In this document: positions 3,615 to 18,656 of the stretch, in pieces | How positions within the stretch are numbered: position 1 is the stretch's first letter | How the letters are laid out: every line of letters starts with the position of its first letter | Origin: Ruminococcus sp. UBA4385 | GTDB lineage: Bacteria; Bacillota_A; Clostridia; Oscillospirales; Ruminococcaceae | Assembly: GCA_002391065.1 (NCBI GenBank) | Contig: DGRP01000017.1 | Location: 1 to 22,940, forward strand | Direction: 5' to 3' | Length of the DNA: 22,940 bases | The notes under the pieces: model-generated | Told to the model about the DNA's origin: nothing | Databases searched by the model: none | What the model saw: only the letters and a program-made list of their open reading frames with translations | Made by a program: the position numbers and the translations under genes

Positions 3615-3778
3615 ATTATATCATACAAAAAAACATTTGTCAATAGGCTGAAAGTTATTTTCAGCCCATGTTGATTTTATACAAATATTCCTTCGTTTTT
3701 TGTAATTATCGCCAAAATCTGAGTTAACTGTAATATTTGCCGTTCCTCAAGCGACTTATATACAGGGAGGTGTAAAGC

Positions 3779-4285
3779 ATGCTGGACTATAATCCCAATA
3801 TCCGAGAGCTCGAGCGGATAATAAATCAATATAAGAAGACAGTCTACGGCATAGCAGCTGCAATGCTCAGAAACAAGAGCGATGCCGATGATGTTTTTCA
3901 GGAGGTGTTTCTTCTGTATTATAAGAAGAACATAGCCTTTGAAACCGAAGCAGGCAGAAGAGCATGGCTCATAAGAGTTACAGTGAACAAATGCAGACAG
4001 GTAAACAACAGTGTGTGGAACACAAGAGTTGATAAAACAGATGAGCTTGAAATAGTTCACGAGTTTGCCTTTACAAATGAAGAAAGCGAGGTCTTCACAG
4101 CGGTATCAGAGCTTGAACAGAAGTACCGTATACCTGTGATACTTCATTATTTTCAGGGCTTGTCTGTAAATGAGATAGCTGACATTTTAGGTGAGCGCAG
4201 CAATACTGTAAGCGTAAGACTGAACCGAGCAAGAAAGCTCCTTAAACAGAGATTGGAGGAAGACGATGAAAACGGATATTTTTAA
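3779..4285 (+). CDS. RNA polymerase sigma factor, ECF-like (sigma-70 family)
   Basis: A 168-residue sigma factor. Region 2 is seen at about residues 17-75, with the NKSDADDVFQEVFLLYYK core that binds polymerase and the -10 element and AWLIRVTVNKCRQ closing it. Region 4 at about 110-158 has the helix-turn-helix LSVNEIADILGERSNTVSVRL and the typical ending LNRARKLLKQRL. Regions 1 and 3 are missing, as in ECF sigmas. The ATG follows GGGAGGTG. Its last 20 bases overlap the next gene, a membrane protein, so the two are translationally coupled in the usual sigma/anti-sigma arrangement. A TGTAAT (3729-3734), 17 bases, CGACTT (3752-3757) pair upstream looks somewhat like an ECF promoter and could mean autoregulation, but this is weak. 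Target genes are unknown. Confidence 0.9.
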   Translation: MLDYNPNIRELERIINQYKKTVYGIAAAMLRNKSDADDVFQEVFLLYYKKNIAFETEAGRRAWLIRVTVNKCRQVNNSVWNTRVDKTDELEIVHEFAFTNEESEVFTAVSELEQKYRIPVILHYFQGLSVNEIADILGERSNTVSVRLNRARKLLKQRLEEDDENGYF

Positions 4286-6164
4286 CAGTATCAATCAAAA
4301 GCTGACTCCCGATCAGAGTCTTATCACGGAACTGCTTGAAAAAGCAGGACGTAAAGAGTTCTCCGAAGAGCCTGTAATTGATATAGAGCAGGCACCTGCC
4401 GAGCTCTTCACTGAGTCTGAGCGTGATGAGCCTGTCGAGAAGAAGGAGCAGTCAAAGATAAAGGTAAGAAGCAAGTTCCTGCCTTTTGCTGCAGCGGCTG
4501 CTGCTTTGGTAATAGTCTGCACAGGCGGTTTTTTTCTGCTGAGGGGAACAGGCATTCTTAACTATCCGGGTGCAGGCGATTCTGAAAATGCTGCGACCGA
4601 GGAAGACCTTATGACGGCTAACGGCAATGCAAAGCTTCTATTTTGCGAGGTTAACAACTGCGTAGCAGACCTGATTGCAGACGGAAGGGAAAACGAAATA
4701 GACGAGTACAGAAAATCGGACAATTATGGCAAGCCTGTCCGTCTGTCAGACCTTAAAAAGGCAGATTCAGGCAACTGTATCGACTATAGCATCTATCGGA
4801 CCTTTGTTGATAACGAGATCGAAGACGGCTATATCTATTTTGAGATCGACGCTCAGTACAATGTGATAGCAGCCCAGTGGGCTAAGAGCAAAGACACAAC
4901 AGCAGTAGGTCAGTATCCCGACCCCGAGTTTGACCCGACTGTCAAGCATAAGATCGGAGAGATATATCATTCGGTCGGTTATGATGATTACAACGTCTAT
5001 GACGAGGTCTGGGACGGACTATCGGTAGAAATAGAGCCTGATTCCGTCACACCCACAGGCCTGACAGTGAACTTTACACGCAGCTGTGATCTGCTTGACA
5101 ATCAGTATCAGATGGTAAGAAGTGATTATGAATTGTTCTCTATTAATGATGGAAATGCCAATGAGCTTGACTTCATTAGTGACGCAAGAGGCTATGAATA
5201 CAGAGAGGGCGTACTCAGAAAAGAGGGTGACGCACTTACCTATAAGTATGACTGGTCGAACCTTTACGGTGCACTGGAGCCGGGTGATTATAGTATGGGT
5301 ATCCATGTTATCACCAATGGCGAGGACGTTAGGGAAACACAGAATTATGAGCTGCAATTCACTATCCCGGCTGAACCTGTGGAGGTTCCCGATGTTGTAG
5401 GAATGACCTCGGAACAAGCGCAGACAGCACTAACACAAGCAGGCTTCAAGTGCTTTATCAGGGAAAGATATGATGATAATGCTGAAAAGGGTATCGTAGT
5501 AAAGCAGGATATAGAAGCAGGCACAAAGTATGAAACAGGCGGACAGGTCGTTATCTTTGTAAGTGTGGGTCCCGTTGAGAACGCTTGTAAGGTTCCCGAT
5601 GTAAGAGATCTGACCGAGGAAGAGGCTGTTGCTTTTATCAAAGAAAACAAGCTTACACCAAAGGTTGAGTATATTCAGCATGATGACTCCACAAAGGGCA
5701 GAGTAGTTCAGCAGTCGATATCCGCAGGCGAGTTTGTCGCTCCGAATACAGAGGTGACACTCTCTGTCTCCACAGGCATACCCGAGCTCCCCGAGGACTG
5801 GGGCATTACAATGCGTGCAGATTCGGTAACTCCGAACAATATGAGCCTTTACTTCATAAGTGACGGCTCAGCCGAAAGCTGCGAGGTAATGACAGGAACA
5901 GAGTTTACTCTCTATAAGCTCAACGGCGATAAAGCAGAAAAGCTTGAACCGATAAGCGGAGCCTTCTGGAGAGATATAGCCCTTGAAATAAACACAGAAA
6001 AAGATGCCGAGACAAAAACAGGCATAGACTTCTCCGAGGGCGGCTACGGAGAGCTCGAAAAGGGCACATACAGAATAGAAAAGACCCTGGGTCTGACCTC
6101 GGGTCTTGACGGAGAAACAGGCGGCAGAACACGCACATTTACCTGTGACTTCACTGTAGAGTAG
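4266..6164 (+). CDS. Putative membrane anti-sigma/sensor protein with two PASTA and two Ig-like domains
   Basis: A 632-residue one-pass membrane protein. Residues 1-70 are a charged cytoplasmic tail, 71-92 the membrane helix, the rest extracellular. Outside come an unassigned domain (about 115-210), an Ig-like repeat (about 253-367), PASTA modules at about 372-436 (VEVPDVVGM) and 441-504 (CKVPDVRDL), and a second Ig-like repeat (about 512-631). Both Ig-like repeats begin with a DSVTP strand. PASTA modules in kinases such as PrkC bind muropeptides or lipid II. The start overlaps the sigma gene by 20 bases and uses GGAGGAA, so the best guess is that the tail holds the sigma factor until the outside part senses a wall signal. 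The tail has no zinc anti-sigma HxxxCxxC motif, so the anti-sigma role rests on position and topology only. Confidence 0.75.
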   Translation: MKTDIFNSINQKLTPDQSLITELLEKAGRKEFSEEPVIDIEQAPAELFTESERDEPVEKKEQSKIKVRSKFLPFAAAAAALVIVCTGGFFLLRGTGILNYPGAGDSENAATEEDLMTANGNAKLLFCEVNNCVADLIADGRENEIDEYRKSDNYGKPVRLSDLKKADSGNCIDYSIYRTFVDNEIEDGYIYFEIDAQYNVIAAQWAKSKDTTAVGQYPDPEFDPTVKHKIGEIYHSVGYDDYNVYDEVWDGLSVEIEPDSVTPTGLTVNFTRSCDLLDNQYQMVRSDYELFSINDGNANELDFISDARGYEYREGVLRKEGDALTYKYDWSNLYGALEPGDYSMGIHVITNGEDVRETQNYELQFTIPAEPVEVPDVVGMTSEQAQTALTQAGFKCFIRERYDDNAEKGIVVKQDIEAGTKYETGGQVVIFVSVGPVENACKVPDVRDLTEEEAVAFIKENKLTPKVEYIQHDDSTKGRVVQQSISAGEFVAPNTEVTLSVSTGIPELPEDWGITMRADSVTPNNMSLYFISDGSAESCEVMTGTEFTLYKLNGDKAEKLEPISGAFWRDIALEINTEKDAETKTGIDFSEGGYGELEKGTYRIEKTLGLTSGLDGETGGRTRTFTCDFTVE

Positions 6165-6199
6165 AACAAGGTTAAATATAAGCATAGGAGCTGAACGTT

Positions 6200-6427
6200 A
6201 TGGACAGTAAGTTTCAGAAAATGGGCGAGACTATAGATAATGCCTTCGGTGTGTTTTATGCATGGCTTGCTGTCCTGTTCGTTCTGGCTGTGATAATAAC
6301 AGCTGCGGTTATCAGGCATAAAAGGGTAGTCAGGGAAAAGGGCAGCTCATCAAGAATAGGCATTATCATACTCGTCGGATTGTTTGCGCTTGTCCTAGCA
6401 CCGCTGCTTATCGGAACATTTTTATAG
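6200..6427 (+). CDS. Small two-helix membrane protein of the sigma operon
   Basis: A 75-residue protein with membrane helices at about residues 18-39 and 53-73, joined by a short basic loop (RHKRVVREKGSSSR) that should face the cytoplasm. The N-terminal part is amphipathic. It begins 35 bases after the sensor gene, behind AGGAGC, and is the last gene before the terminator at 6436-6464, so it belongs to the sigma operon. No family is recognised. A helper, a partner of the sensor, or a regulatory proteolysis adaptor are possible, but nothing in the sequence decides among them. Confidence 0.7.
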   Translation: MDSKFQKMGETIDNAFGVFYAWLAVLFVLAVIITAAVIRHKRVVREKGSSSRIGIIILVGLFALVLAPLLIGTFL

Positions 6428-15559: not shown

Positions 15560-16297
15560 GTGAGCCGTTTGTTCGTTGCATCGAATACTGATAAAGGTAA
15601 AGTCAGAGAAGAAAACCAGGACAGAGTTGAGACAAGATTTCTTGGCGATAATATGTCTGTAGCTATAGTCTGCGACGGTATGGGCGGCGCAGCCTCGGGT
15701 GCAGTTGCAAGTCAGCTTGCTGTTGATACGATTGCGCACAGGGTAGTTGATAATTTCCGTCCTGATATGAAACCAAATTCTATAAGAAATCTTCTTCTTA
15801 CATCTGTTCATGCTGCGAATACCGTAGTTTATGAAAAGAGCCGTGAGGATATAGATAAAAACGGTATGGGTACTACCTGCGTTGCAGCACTTGTTGTGAA
15901 CAAGTGTATTTACGTTGTCAATGTCGGAGACAGCAGAGCGTATATTCTGACTGACAGCGGCATAAAGCAGATAACTACTGACCATACCTATGTTGAAATG
16001 CTTCGTCAGTCGGGACAGATAACCGATGAAGAGGCTAAAAATCACCATATGAAGAATGTCATAACAAAGGCAGTCGGAGTTGAACCCGATGTTGAGGTCG
16101 ATTATTTCGAGCTTGAGGAGTGGGGCAATTTTTCGATAGTGCTTTGTTCTGACGGCTTGTCAAACTACTGCTCTGATGATTTTATTTATGAGACTGTGTT
16201 TGGCAAAAACCTCGATGAGGCTATAAAAACATTGATAAATTATGCAAATGAAAGCGGCGGAAGAGATAATATAACTGCTGCTATCATAGCTAATTGA
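15560..16297 (+). CDS. prpC: PP2C-family Ser/Thr protein phosphatase (PrpC/Stp)
   Basis: A 245-residue PPM-type phosphatase that reverses phosphorylation by the PrkC kinase encoded just downstream. Metal-binding motifs are ENQDR near residue 18-22, VCDGMGG with Asp39, GDSRAY, CSDGLSNY and GGRDNITAA, all in the usual order. It has no membrane segment. The start is not certain: GTG at 15560 is only two bases from AAAGGA, while TTG at 15569 (removing three residues) has better spacing. The pair prpC-prkC is the standard Firmicutes arrangement; here a 43-base gap separates them. Confidence 0.94.
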   Translation: MSRLFVASNTDKGKVREENQDRVETRFLGDNMSVAIVCDGMGGAASGAVASQLAVDTIAHRVVDNFRPDMKPNSIRNLLLTSVHAANTVVYEKSREDIDKNGMGTTCVAALVVNKCIYVVNVGDSRAYILTDSGIKQITTDHTYVEMLRQSGQITDEEAKNHHMKNVITKAVGVEPDVEVDYFELEEWGNFSIVLCSDGLSNYCSDDFIYETVFGKNLDEAIKTLINYANESGGRDNITAAIIAN

Positions 16298-16340: not shown

Positions 16341-18656
16341 ATGGATTCTAATATCGGCAAAAAGCTCGACGGCAGATATGAAATAACCGAGCTTATAGGC
16401 GTCGGCGGAATGGCTGACGTGTATAAAGCTATAGATGTTATGGAAAATCGTACTGTCGCCGTAAAAATCCTGAAGGCTGAATTCTCTGAGAACGAGGAGT
16501 TTCTAAGGAGATTCAGGAATGAGAGCAAGGCTATTGCGGTGCTCTCTCACCCTAATATCGTCAAGATCTATGATGTGGGCTTTTCTGATGAGATACAGTT
16601 CATTGTTATGGAATATATTGACGGTATCACGCTCAAGGAATTTATTGAGCAGCAGGGTGTGCTTCGCTGGAAGGATGCACTGCACTTTGTAACACAGATA
16701 CTGAGAGCTTTACAGCACGCACATGACAAGGGTATAGTTCACCGTGACATAAAGCCTCAGAATATTATGCTCTTCACTGACGGTACTATCAAGGTCATGG
16801 ACTTTGGTATCGCAAGATTCTCCAGAATTGACGGTAAGACCCTTTCTGATAAGACAATAGGCTCTGTTCATTATATTTCACCTGAGCAGGCAAGAGGTGA
16901 TATGACCGATGAAAGGTCTGACATCTATTCTGTTGGTGTAATGCTTTACGAGATGCTTACAGGAAGGAAGCCGTTTGAGGGCGAGAATCCTGTATCTATA
17001 GCTGTCAAGCATATGCAGGACAAGGCAGTTGAGCCAAGAGAGATAATGCCCTCTATTCCTGAGGCGCTTGAAGAGATCGTTATCCACGCAATGGAGAAGG
17101 ATCCTATCAGACGTTATCAGTCTGCAGCCGAGATGATTAAGGATATAGATACATTCAAGATCAATCCTTCCGTAGTATTCGGCTATAAGAACGGTGTTTC
17201 AGCAGCTGATAATGCACCTGTAGTGCCGGTTTCCTCAAACAACATTTATGATGAAGAGGATCAGTACGAAGAGGATTACGATGATGACGAAGAGGAAGAT
17301 GATGAGGACGAAGAGGACGAGAAGAAGCGTTCTTATGTAGTTCCTATTCTCCTCGGAATGACCGTTGCAGTTGTAATTATTGCTTGTATAGTTATTGTAT
17401 ATTCAGTTCTGAATTCATTCAGCGGCGATGACGGACTTGGTTCAAAGGGCGTTGTAACGCTTCCGAACTTTGTTGGAATGAACATCGTAAAGGTTGAGCA
17501 GGATTATAAGGACAAGCTGAAATTTGATGTTTCAGAAGAGTATAACAATGAGTTTGACGAGGGTATCATCATCGGACAGGCTCAGACGGTCGGCAAGCAG
17601 GTCAAGGAAGGAACGACCATAGCACTGACTGTAAGTAAGGGTAAAAAGATGATAACCGTGCCTGATATGACGGCTAAGGAAAGTGCCGTCGCCCAGAGTG
17701 AGCTCAAGGCCGCAGGATTTAATGTCGTATTGCGAGAGCAATGGACAGATGATGTTGCTAAGGGTCTTGTAGTCAAGACCGAGCCTGCTGCAGGTGAGCA
17801 GCACGCAGAGGGCGCAACAGTTGCTGTATTCGTCAGCATGGGACCTGTTGAGACCAGAGTTAAAGTTCCTGATGTAGTTGGTCTTACAGAAGAGAAGGCT
17901 GTTAAGTCGCTCAAGGAGAATAAGCTTACTCCTATCGTTCAGGAGGTTGAGCATGACGGTGATAAGGGCAAGGTAATCGAGCAGGATCTCGAGGCCGGTT
18001 CTTATCAGGAGAGAAATACCGAGGTTATAATCTATGTATCTTCGGGTGAGGTTGCTCCTACACAGCTGACATTCTCTATGCCGCTGCCTGAGGGCCTTAA
18101 TGGTTCTTACTCGCTTGATATTTACAAAGACGGAAATGTAGCTTATACTCAGAAGATCTCTAACGGTGAGGCTGTTGCAGGCGGTTCTGTAAACATCACT
18201 GTTGAGGGTAAGAAGAAGGAAGTTCTGACTATCTACGTTAAGAGCGATGAGACTACACAGCAGTGCAGATACGCTGTATATGATATAGACTACGATAATA
18301 AGAGCGCAACTCTCAGCGGAAGCCTGAACGAGAGTGGCCTTATCAATATCAGTCCTACAACTACAGCACAGTCTGAATTTGAAGTGTTCATTAACAGCGG
18401 TAACGGAGGAAATGCATCTGTATCAAGCAGCAAGGCTAAGGCAGGTACAACTATAAACGTTACTGTAACACCTAACACAGGATTCACAGTTGGTACTGTT
18501 ACTGTAACCTATGGCGGTCAGACAATGGATATTACTTCCAGCAGAAGCTTTAATATGCCAAGCTCGAATGTAACCGTAGATGTAACATTCAATGCAGAAG
18601 CACAGCCGGAGCCTCAGCAGCCCGAACAGAATGACGGCGGAGACCAGCAGCAGTAA
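16341..18656 (+). CDS. prkC: PASTA-domain Ser/Thr protein kinase (PrkC/Stk) with extra C-terminal domains
   Basis: A 771-residue one-pass membrane kinase. The kinase domain spans about residues 13-275: glycine loop GVGGMADVYKA, Lys42 in VAVKILK, catalytic HRDIKPQN with Asp136, DFG at 154, and an activation loop reading GSVHYISPEQARG. A highly acidic stretch (about 303-328) precedes the membrane helix (about 334-357). Outside are three PASTA modules starting near 371, 437 and 507, which by family knowledge bind muropeptides or lipid II. About 200 further residues follow: a Ser/Thr-rich beta region and, at about 675-750, a segment resembling bacterial beta repeats (VTVTPNTGFTVGTVTV, then FNMPSSNVTVDVTF), ending in a Gln/Pro-rich tail. 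PrkC of Bacillus stops soon after its PASTA array, so this extension is unusual. Confidence 0.95.
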   Translation: MDSNIGKKLDGRYEITELIGVGGMADVYKAIDVMENRTVAVKILKAEFSENEEFLRRFRNESKAIAVLSHPNIVKIYDVGFSDEIQFIVMEYIDGITLKEFIEQQGVLRWKDALHFVTQILRALQHAHDKGIVHRDIKPQNIMLFTDGTIKVMDFGIARFSRIDGKTLSDKTIGSVHYISPEQARGDMTDERSDIYSVGVMLYEMLTGRKPFEGENPVSIAVKHMQDKAVEPREIMPSIPEALEEIVIHAMEKDPIRRYQSAAEMIKDIDTFKINPSVVFGYKNGVSAADNAPVVPVSSNNIYDEEDQYEEDYDDDEEEDDEDEEDEKKRSYVVPILLGMTVAVVIIACIVIVYSVLNSFSGDDGLGSKGVVTLPNFVGMNIVKVEQDYKDKLKFDVSEEYNNEFDEGIIIGQAQTVGKQVKEGTTIALTVSKGKKMITVPDMTAKESAVAQSELKAAGFNVVLREQWTDDVAKGLVVKTEPAAGEQHAEGATVAVFVSMGPVETRVKVPDVVGLTEEKAVKSLKENKLTPIVQEVEHDGDKGKVIEQDLEAGSYQERNTEVIIYVSSGEVAPTQLTFSMPLPEGLNGSYSLDIYKDGNVAYTQKISNGEAVAGGSVNITVEGKKKEVLTIYVKSDETTQQCRYAVYDIDYDNKSATLSGSLNESGLINISPTTTAQSEFEVFINSGNGGNASVSSSKAKAGTTINVTVTPNTGFTVGTVTVTYGGQTMDITSSRSFNMPSSNVTVDVTFNAEAQPEPQQPEQNDGGDQQQ

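Follow-up and report, generated by a model that had tools for sequence, protein, structure and literature searches.

An ECF sigma factor gene of Ruminococcus paired with a putative membrane anti-sigma factor that carries PrkC-like PASTA domains

The window analysed here is the whole of a 22,940-nucleotide stretch of Ruminococcus sp. UBA4385 (contig DGRP01000017.1 of assembly GCA_002391065.1), in which the gene of a sigma factor of the extracytoplasmic function (ECF) type is followed by that of a membrane protein with PASTA domains, a putative anti-sigma factor which we refer to as the sensor (Table 1). A reading of this DNA from the sequence alone, below called the sequence-only reading, had described an ECF-like sigma gene overlapping a one-pass membrane protein, and this is borne out on both sides. 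The two open reading frames (ORFs) share 20 bases, and the sigma factor exceeds the Pfam cut-offs for Sigma70_r2 (residues 15-73, 39.3 bits) and Sigma70_r4_2 (residues 107-155, 49.2 bits), while it scores 76.8 bits against the NCBIfam sigma70-ECF superfamily (cut-off 42.9). With regions 2 and 4 only and a length of 168 amino acids, it has the composition and size of ECF sigma factors (approximately 160-190 amino acids), and its closest relative by sequence in the PDB is SigW (E 9.7e-11). The sensor, of 632 amino acids, has a single hydrophobic segment according to the hydropathy rule, and its layout is that expected of membrane anti-sigma factors: a gene directly behind the sigma gene, an N-terminal tail, one membrane helix and an outer domain.

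Table 1. Features of the sigma-sensor locus and of the PrkC-type kinase gene, with positions in the window
Feature	Positions	Strand	Basis or remark
Candidate ECF promoter of the operon, TGTAATATTT-N13-CGAC	3729..3755	+	By-eye likeness in relatives; weak
ECF sigma factor, 168 amino acids	3779..4285	+	Pfam Sigma70_r2, Sigma70_r4_2
One-pass membrane protein, putative anti-sigma factor and sensor, 632 amino acids	4266..6164	+	20-base overlap with sigma ORF
Cytoplasmic tail, residues 1-70, putative sigma-binding part	4266..4475	+	Conserved with sigma subfamily
Transmembrane segment, approximately residues 74-92	4485..4541	+	Hydropathy maximum 2.34
Type IV pilin-like domain, residues 107-235	4584..4970	+	Profile match to prepilins
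Strand-rich region, possible first Ig-like domain, residues 252-367	5019..5366	+	Secondary structure of model
PASTA 1, residues 372-436, nearest PrkC PASTA 2	5379..5573	+	Pfam, unit comparison
PASTA 2, residues 441-505, nearest PrkC PASTA 3	5586..5780	+	Pfam, unit comparison
Big_14 Ig-like domain, residues 512-612	5799..6101	+	Pfam 37.2 bits, cut-off 27
Small hydrophobic protein, 75 amino acids, optional member	6200..6427	+	Homologue in RUG393, look-alike ORF in G313
PrkC-type Ser/Thr kinase, three PASTA domains; its lineage the putative donor of the PASTA pair	16341..18656	+	Pfam; tree

PASTA domains have mostly been described in kinases and penicillin-binding proteins, and Pfam matched neither a kinase nor a transpeptidase domain in the sensor. 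The two PASTA stretches that the sequence-only reading had placed in the outer part were recovered at 104.5 bits (Pfam cut-off 23.2), and of the two Ig-like repeats that it had also claimed, the one behind the PASTA pair was recovered as Big_14. The other, ahead of the pair, had no Pfam match when this stretch was scanned alone and is only strand-rich in the model, and the corresponding region of a relative scored 20.2 bits against Big_14, which is sub-threshold; a second Ig-like part at this position is thus plausible.

A further domain, which had gone unnoticed, lies between the membrane and the Ig-like parts. When a profile of sensor residues 1-233 was searched in 297 genomes of the family, there were matches in 20 of these, and many proteins matched over approximately residues 113-230 only, prepilins among them; the best prepilin match lies in RUG393's own genome (G001 in our set; E 1.6e-25). 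This partial match suggests that the sensor has the globular half of a pilin directly after its membrane helix, and we describe residues 107-235 as matching the globular half of type IV prepilins. The motifs ANxNAK, AQW and GQYPDP align between the sensor and the pilin-like matches, and the domain was modelled with a pLDDT of 88.7, although comparison of the model with solved structures gave no clear match. Two prepilin relatives were scanned with Pfam, and both have the N-terminus that is cleaved and methylated in prepilins (N_methyl, 38.8 and 39.7 bits), for which the sensor gave no match. The profile of this domain also matched zinc-ribbon membrane proteins and lipoprotein-like ORFs: examples with a zinc ribbon, a membrane helix and a pilin-like domain are L013:1018-1749, L031:273-992 and L018:1378-2235, and together with lipoprotein-like ORFs (L014, L035) they suggest that the pilin globular half serves outside pili in several architectures.

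With regard to the cytoplasmic side, residues 1-80 of the sensor contain neither cysteine nor histidine, and the zinc (ZAS) anti-sigma motif is therefore absent, as the sequence-only reading had noted. No known anti-sigma domain was matched in the sensor in Pfam or NCBIfam, including the RsgI-type N-terminal domain at E values up to 1. Non-zinc anti-sigma tails are already a known kind, and to our knowledge RsiV of Bacillus subtilis likewise has no zinc motif. Relatives of the sigma factor were taken at a score of at least 150 bits, giving 37 genes, 35 of which had a partner ORF by a set rule (the two without one being L094 and L097). These partners have one hydrophobic segment, their first 30 residues mostly resemble MKxDxxxxIxxxLxPDxxLxxxLxxKA, and their outer parts differ. 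Together with the window this makes 36 pairs, of which 31 were left after removing sigma factors at least 90% identical, and among these the similarity of the sigma factors correlated with that of the tails (r 0.81; reached in 0 of 2000 permutations). The outer parts were unrelated in 410 of the 465 pair comparisons, and there tail similarity averaged 0.19 versus 0.084 for the N-termini of other ORFs; 85% of these 410 comparisons lay above the 95th percentile of the control, which consisted of N-termini of six-frame ORFs, many of them not genes. A short tail that is kept while most outer parts are unrelated is as expected of a sigma-binding part, and would make the sensor a non-zinc anti-sigma factor. 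The suggestion that the sigma-binding part may be new was only partly right, since the tail is a member of a family of short tails of the non-zinc kind that accompanies the sigma subfamily.

We expanded the search to PASTA domains in 29 genomes of the genus, all of which had matches (3 to 28 per genome). Among the matches listed, 77 PASTA genes were tallied by hand, a tally which covers the stronger matches and therefore misses weaker ones, and all counts of PASTA genes given below refer to it. Based on similarity to the PrkC of the window and to L219, with Pfam on a few, these were 25 PrkC, 11 further zinc-ribbon kinases, 14 penicillin-binding proteins and 27 others. For the 50 genes of kinases or penicillin-binding proteins, the upstream DNA analysed (828 to 8620 bases each) contained no sigma ORF, while 23 of the 27 others immediately follow an ECF sigma gene of the same orientation, the junctions ranging from an overlap of up to 71 bases to a gap of 4 (using longest-ORF starts). 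These 23 pairs represent six types (A, the window type, to F) in 14 of the 29 genomes, and their representative sigma factors are only 24-38% identical across types, with the exception of B versus F (51%). One pair of each type from B to F was scanned with Pfam: all of these had PASTA and sigma region 4, while sigma region 2 exceeded the cut-off in types C, D and F but fell short of it in B and E. The joining of the PASTA module to sigma control that had been proposed for this one locus is thus supported by sequence comparison, and extends wider than claimed.

The remaining four of the 27 comprised a second ORF behind a sigma gene in G299, one gene fragment where a contig begins, and two small membrane proteins for which no sigma gene was present. 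In G299 (L178:1436-3108) the sigma gene is followed by a 405-amino acid type D ORF and an overlapping 152-amino acid PASTA ORF, either a split gene or two genes, and the two small proteins (L195:1529-1993 and L198:3667-4131) are each 154 amino acids long, have a single PASTA domain and lie among the same neighbouring genes in the two genomes. Beyond the genus, a sample of 61 genomes of the phylum (match counts only) gave 9 PASTA matches for G001 and 4 to 8 for each of the other 60, and in a sample of 41 genomes of the family (one of them G001), 20 PASTA loci picked by odd ORF length included two further sigma-PASTA neighbours, L230 and L232, both confirmed with Pfam. In G029 (L231:2552-4653) a four-unit PASTA protein is encoded upstream, not downstream, of a sigma gene. 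The large zinc-ribbon Ser/Thr kinases at L167-L169 and L171 have four to six PASTA domains, are distinct from PrkC, and some of them lie beside kinases of similar style.

Next we compared 181 individual PASTA units: 59 from sensors (those of the window, of the 23 pairs and of six type A database homologues), 78 from PrkC, 32 from zinc-ribbon kinases and 12 from penicillin-binding proteins. The best non-sensor match was a PrkC unit for all 59 sensor units, and a zinc-ribbon-kinase or penicillin-binding protein unit for none; as the set is unbalanced, identity is a better control than these counts, and identity to PrkC units was a median 49% (30-94%) for the sensors, versus 34% for the zinc-ribbon kinases and 37% for the penicillin-binding proteins. 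The sensors also keep the unit order of PrkC, with one unit repeated in C_G299, D_G159, D_G308 and two type F sensors. At the DNA level five sensors were compared, and only two are clearly nearest to the PrkC of their own genome: the type F sensor of G308 is 85% identical to its own PrkC (887 bases), versus 75% to the G301 sensor and 82% to the PrkC of G159 or G301, and the type C sensor of G300 is 80% identical to its own PrkC (648 bases), with the next best of those compared at 71%. The type C sensor of G299 is about equally near to the PrkC genes of G159, G299 and G301.

In a tree of 46 rows (26 PrkC, 16 sensors, 4 outgroup; 129 columns, with single-unit sensors and types D and E left out), eight label changes were needed to accommodate the sensors, three of which are forced by strongly supported branches. 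Type A sensors group with the PrkCs found in the same sub-clade (88/87), pointing to an ancestral PrkC of that lineage as the source of the capture. The type C sensors of G300 and G312 are placed next to PRKC_G300 (93/82), and the type F sensors from G159 and G308 are each placed next to the PrkC of the same genome (88/88 and 85/84). A single clade of all 16 sensor rows was rejected (p-AU 0.006). With regard to sub-groups, one clade was not rejected for type F alone (p-AU 0.23) or A plus F (0.07), and was rejected for C alone (0.008) and A plus C (0.005), values which are only indicative because the sub-groups were chosen after the tree had been seen. The best reading of these comparisons is that membrane anti-sigma factors repeatedly acquired PASTA parts of PrkC, although the same pattern could result from gene conversion following an older capture.

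Close homologues of the sensor were found by searching its N-terminal 370 residues in a very large collection, which gave eight proteins, all with PASTA and Big_14; the PASTA and Ig modules differ in number and order among them, while the tail and the pilin-like domain are well conserved. A search of phages with the sensor protein gave two partial matches, 28% and 40% identical. In the genus, sensors of type A are present in 3 of the 29 genomes at an E value of 1e-40 or better (G001, G280 and G302), and G313 has a fragment of one at a locus broken off at the contig end. The sigma and sensor genes are adjacent in all three whole loci, and hence, as expected from the sequence-only reading, the pair is kept together in close homologues, whereas within the sigma subfamily of the window most partners are other kinds of protein. 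L052:3311-7782 is a tandem cluster in which four ORFs weakly similar to the window sigma factor alternate with other ORFs.

The sensor locus is followed by HAD, YicC, Gmk and PriA genes in the window, G280 and G302. The third small membrane protein of the sequence-only reading is present in the window as a 75-amino acid hydrophobic ORF, with a homologue in RUG393 and, by eye, a look-alike in G313, but no ORF of this type was seen between the sensor and HAD genes of G280 and G302, and it is not a constant part of the locus. In the window this ORF and the HAD gene are near neighbours, unlike in RUG393, where three long ORFs (375, 737 and 1790 amino acids; L041:7089-15921), apparently secreted, lie between the two. 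A PP2C gene (15560-16297, Pfam) precedes the PrkC-type kinase gene approximately 10 kb downstream of the sensor, and this PrkC has an InlB-like B-repeat domain (Flg_new_2) after its PASTA domains.

Several known systems resemble parts of this arrangement. According to the available part of the source (PMC12203970), the SigI/RsgI systems of Clostridium thermocellum also comprise several sigma/anti-sigma pairs per genome, with an N-terminal part inside, one membrane helix and differing outer sensors, but there the sensing is done by carbohydrate-binding modules, by glycosidase, PA14 or peptidase-like domains, or by domains of unknown kind, which follow an autocleaving periplasmic domain, whereas the window type has PASTA, pilin-like and Ig-like parts and a sigma factor of the ECF type. 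SigV/RsiV of B. subtilis, as far as described in the portion of PMC6066255 available, combines an ECF sigma factor with a membrane anti-sigma factor whose outer part is a receptor, in that case for lysozyme; the outer domain and ligand differ, and proteolysis is known for RsiV while it is presumed for the window sensor. In SigP/RsiP/PbpP of Bacillus thuringiensis a cell-wall signal reaches an ECF sigma factor via a membrane anti-sigma factor, but the sensor is a separate penicillin-binding protein, and the term PASTA is absent from the main text of this source (PMC8092216). Class I (ASDI) and class II anti-sigma factors share the N-terminal cytoplasmic part and are often encoded with the ECF gene, and domains of less than 50 amino acids were set aside as possible class II anti-sigma factors (PMC7406223, available sections); the window sensor differs in that it matches no anti-sigma family in Pfam or NCBIfam. 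The PASTA kinases PrkC, PknB and StkP share the PASTA units, those of the sensors being nearest to PrkC among the units compared, but the window sensor is without a kinase domain, and inside the cell it has a short tail that accompanies a sigma factor. Anti-sigma factors with diverse outer sensors (RsgI, PMC12203970) and wall signals reaching an ECF sigma factor via a separate protein (PbpP/RsiP, PMC8092216) are thus known, again from partial sources; no report of PASTA domains on the sigma partner itself was found in the literature searched, judged by title or the start of the abstract.

Taken together, we consider it probable that the sensor is the membrane anti-sigma factor of the sigma factor encoded at 3779-4285, with a PASTA pair derived from PASTA 2-3 of PrkC on the outside, and that a wall signal frees the sigma factor. 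The short helical tail would bind the sigma factor at the membrane, while the pilin-like stalk and Ig-like parts would carry the PASTA pair to meet uncross-linked wall material, which may be muropeptide or lipid II. Binding of these has been proposed for the PASTA kinases. Once the outer part is cut or reshaped, the tail would let the sigma factor go, probably via stepwise proteolysis as in the accessible accounts of RsiV, RsgI and RsiP, and the freed sigma factor would turn on its regulon and possibly its own operon.

Several observations weigh against this reading. The tail helices (residues 3-13 and 17-28 of the model) were predicted with low confidence, mostly under a pLDDT of 50. In the 31 pairs the similarity of the sigma factors also correlates with that of the ectodomains (r 0.72), because near relatives share sigma factor and ectodomain alike, and the likeness of tails across unrelated outer parts is thus the stronger point. 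None of the four other partners of the sigma subfamily that were scanned (L044, L046, L047 and L118) had a PASTA match, and the domain therefore seems rare in this subfamily. In the comparison with PrkC, the DNA of the type F sensors of G159 and G301 is 83% identical mutually (1191 bases) and 77-78% identical to their own PrkC genes, so that recent copying is not shown by every sensor, and several key supports of the tree (82-93) are below the starred level, on 129 columns. A promoter element similar to that in Table 1, with equal spacing, was seen by eye upstream of the sigma gene in RUG393, G280 and G302, but the pattern was not enriched in these three genomes over a reversed control (forward plus reverse versus control: G001 3+0 vs 3+5, G280 2+1 vs 2+1, G302 1+1 vs 1+3), and autoregulation of the sigma operon is a guess. 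Finally, in C. difficile PrkC phosphorylation and septal localisation do not require PASTA, according to the available part of PMC9674922.

This last observation also favours the main rival explanation, in which the sensor is still an anti-sigma factor, the PASTA pair does no more than anchor the protein in the wall or act as a spacer, and the pilin-like or Ig-like parts read the signal, for example pilus subunits or surface contact. The variable number and order of PASTA and Ig modules beside a well-conserved tail and pilin-like domain fits such a division of roles, as does the type IV pilin of Ruminococcus flavefaciens, described in the accessible section of PMC3672088 as a major, cellulose-linked extracellular protein. 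However, PrkC-like PASTA domains are also found on types B to F, where the pilin-like profile gave marginal matches only (E 0.035-0.076) and a pilin-like domain is not claimed, and a single origin of the sensor PASTA pairs was rejected, which points to use of the PASTA part itself; we regard the anchor explanation as possible but clearly less probable than a PASTA-based sensor. It is unlikely that the sensor acts on the sigma factor as a positive co-factor or tethers it to the membrane instead of inhibiting it: the lack of matches to known anti-sigma domains would agree with such a role, but RsiV, RsgI and RsiP, sigma partners which likewise have a cytoplasmic N-terminal part, are inhibitors in the parts of the sources available. 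That the adjacency is a by-product of domain shuffling in PASTA- and ECF-rich genomes, with a non-sensory outer part, is very improbable, since even in a genus that can be as PASTA-rich as this one compared with the other 60 genomes of the phylum sample, the position directly behind a sigma gene was found for 23 of 27 versus 0 of 50 genes, in six types and with overlaps or gaps of at most 4 bases.

In a wider view, the wall-sensing ectodomain of the housekeeping kinase PrkC may be a shared sensor cassette in this genus, which membrane partners of several unrelated ECF sigma factors have received by repeated and in some cases recent copying, such that one wall signal would drive both phosphorylation and sigma regulons, with the pilin-like stalk of the window sensor also reading the state of pili or the surface; we give this wider proposal an even chance. 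The repeated acquisition of the kinase's sensor is the most surprising part, and kinase and sigma factor may share one wall signal. If the sigma factors indeed bear the kinase's own sensor, what PASTA domains sense would become testable by a transcriptional read-out, and this would show a bacterium wiring one signal to two types of output by domain copying.

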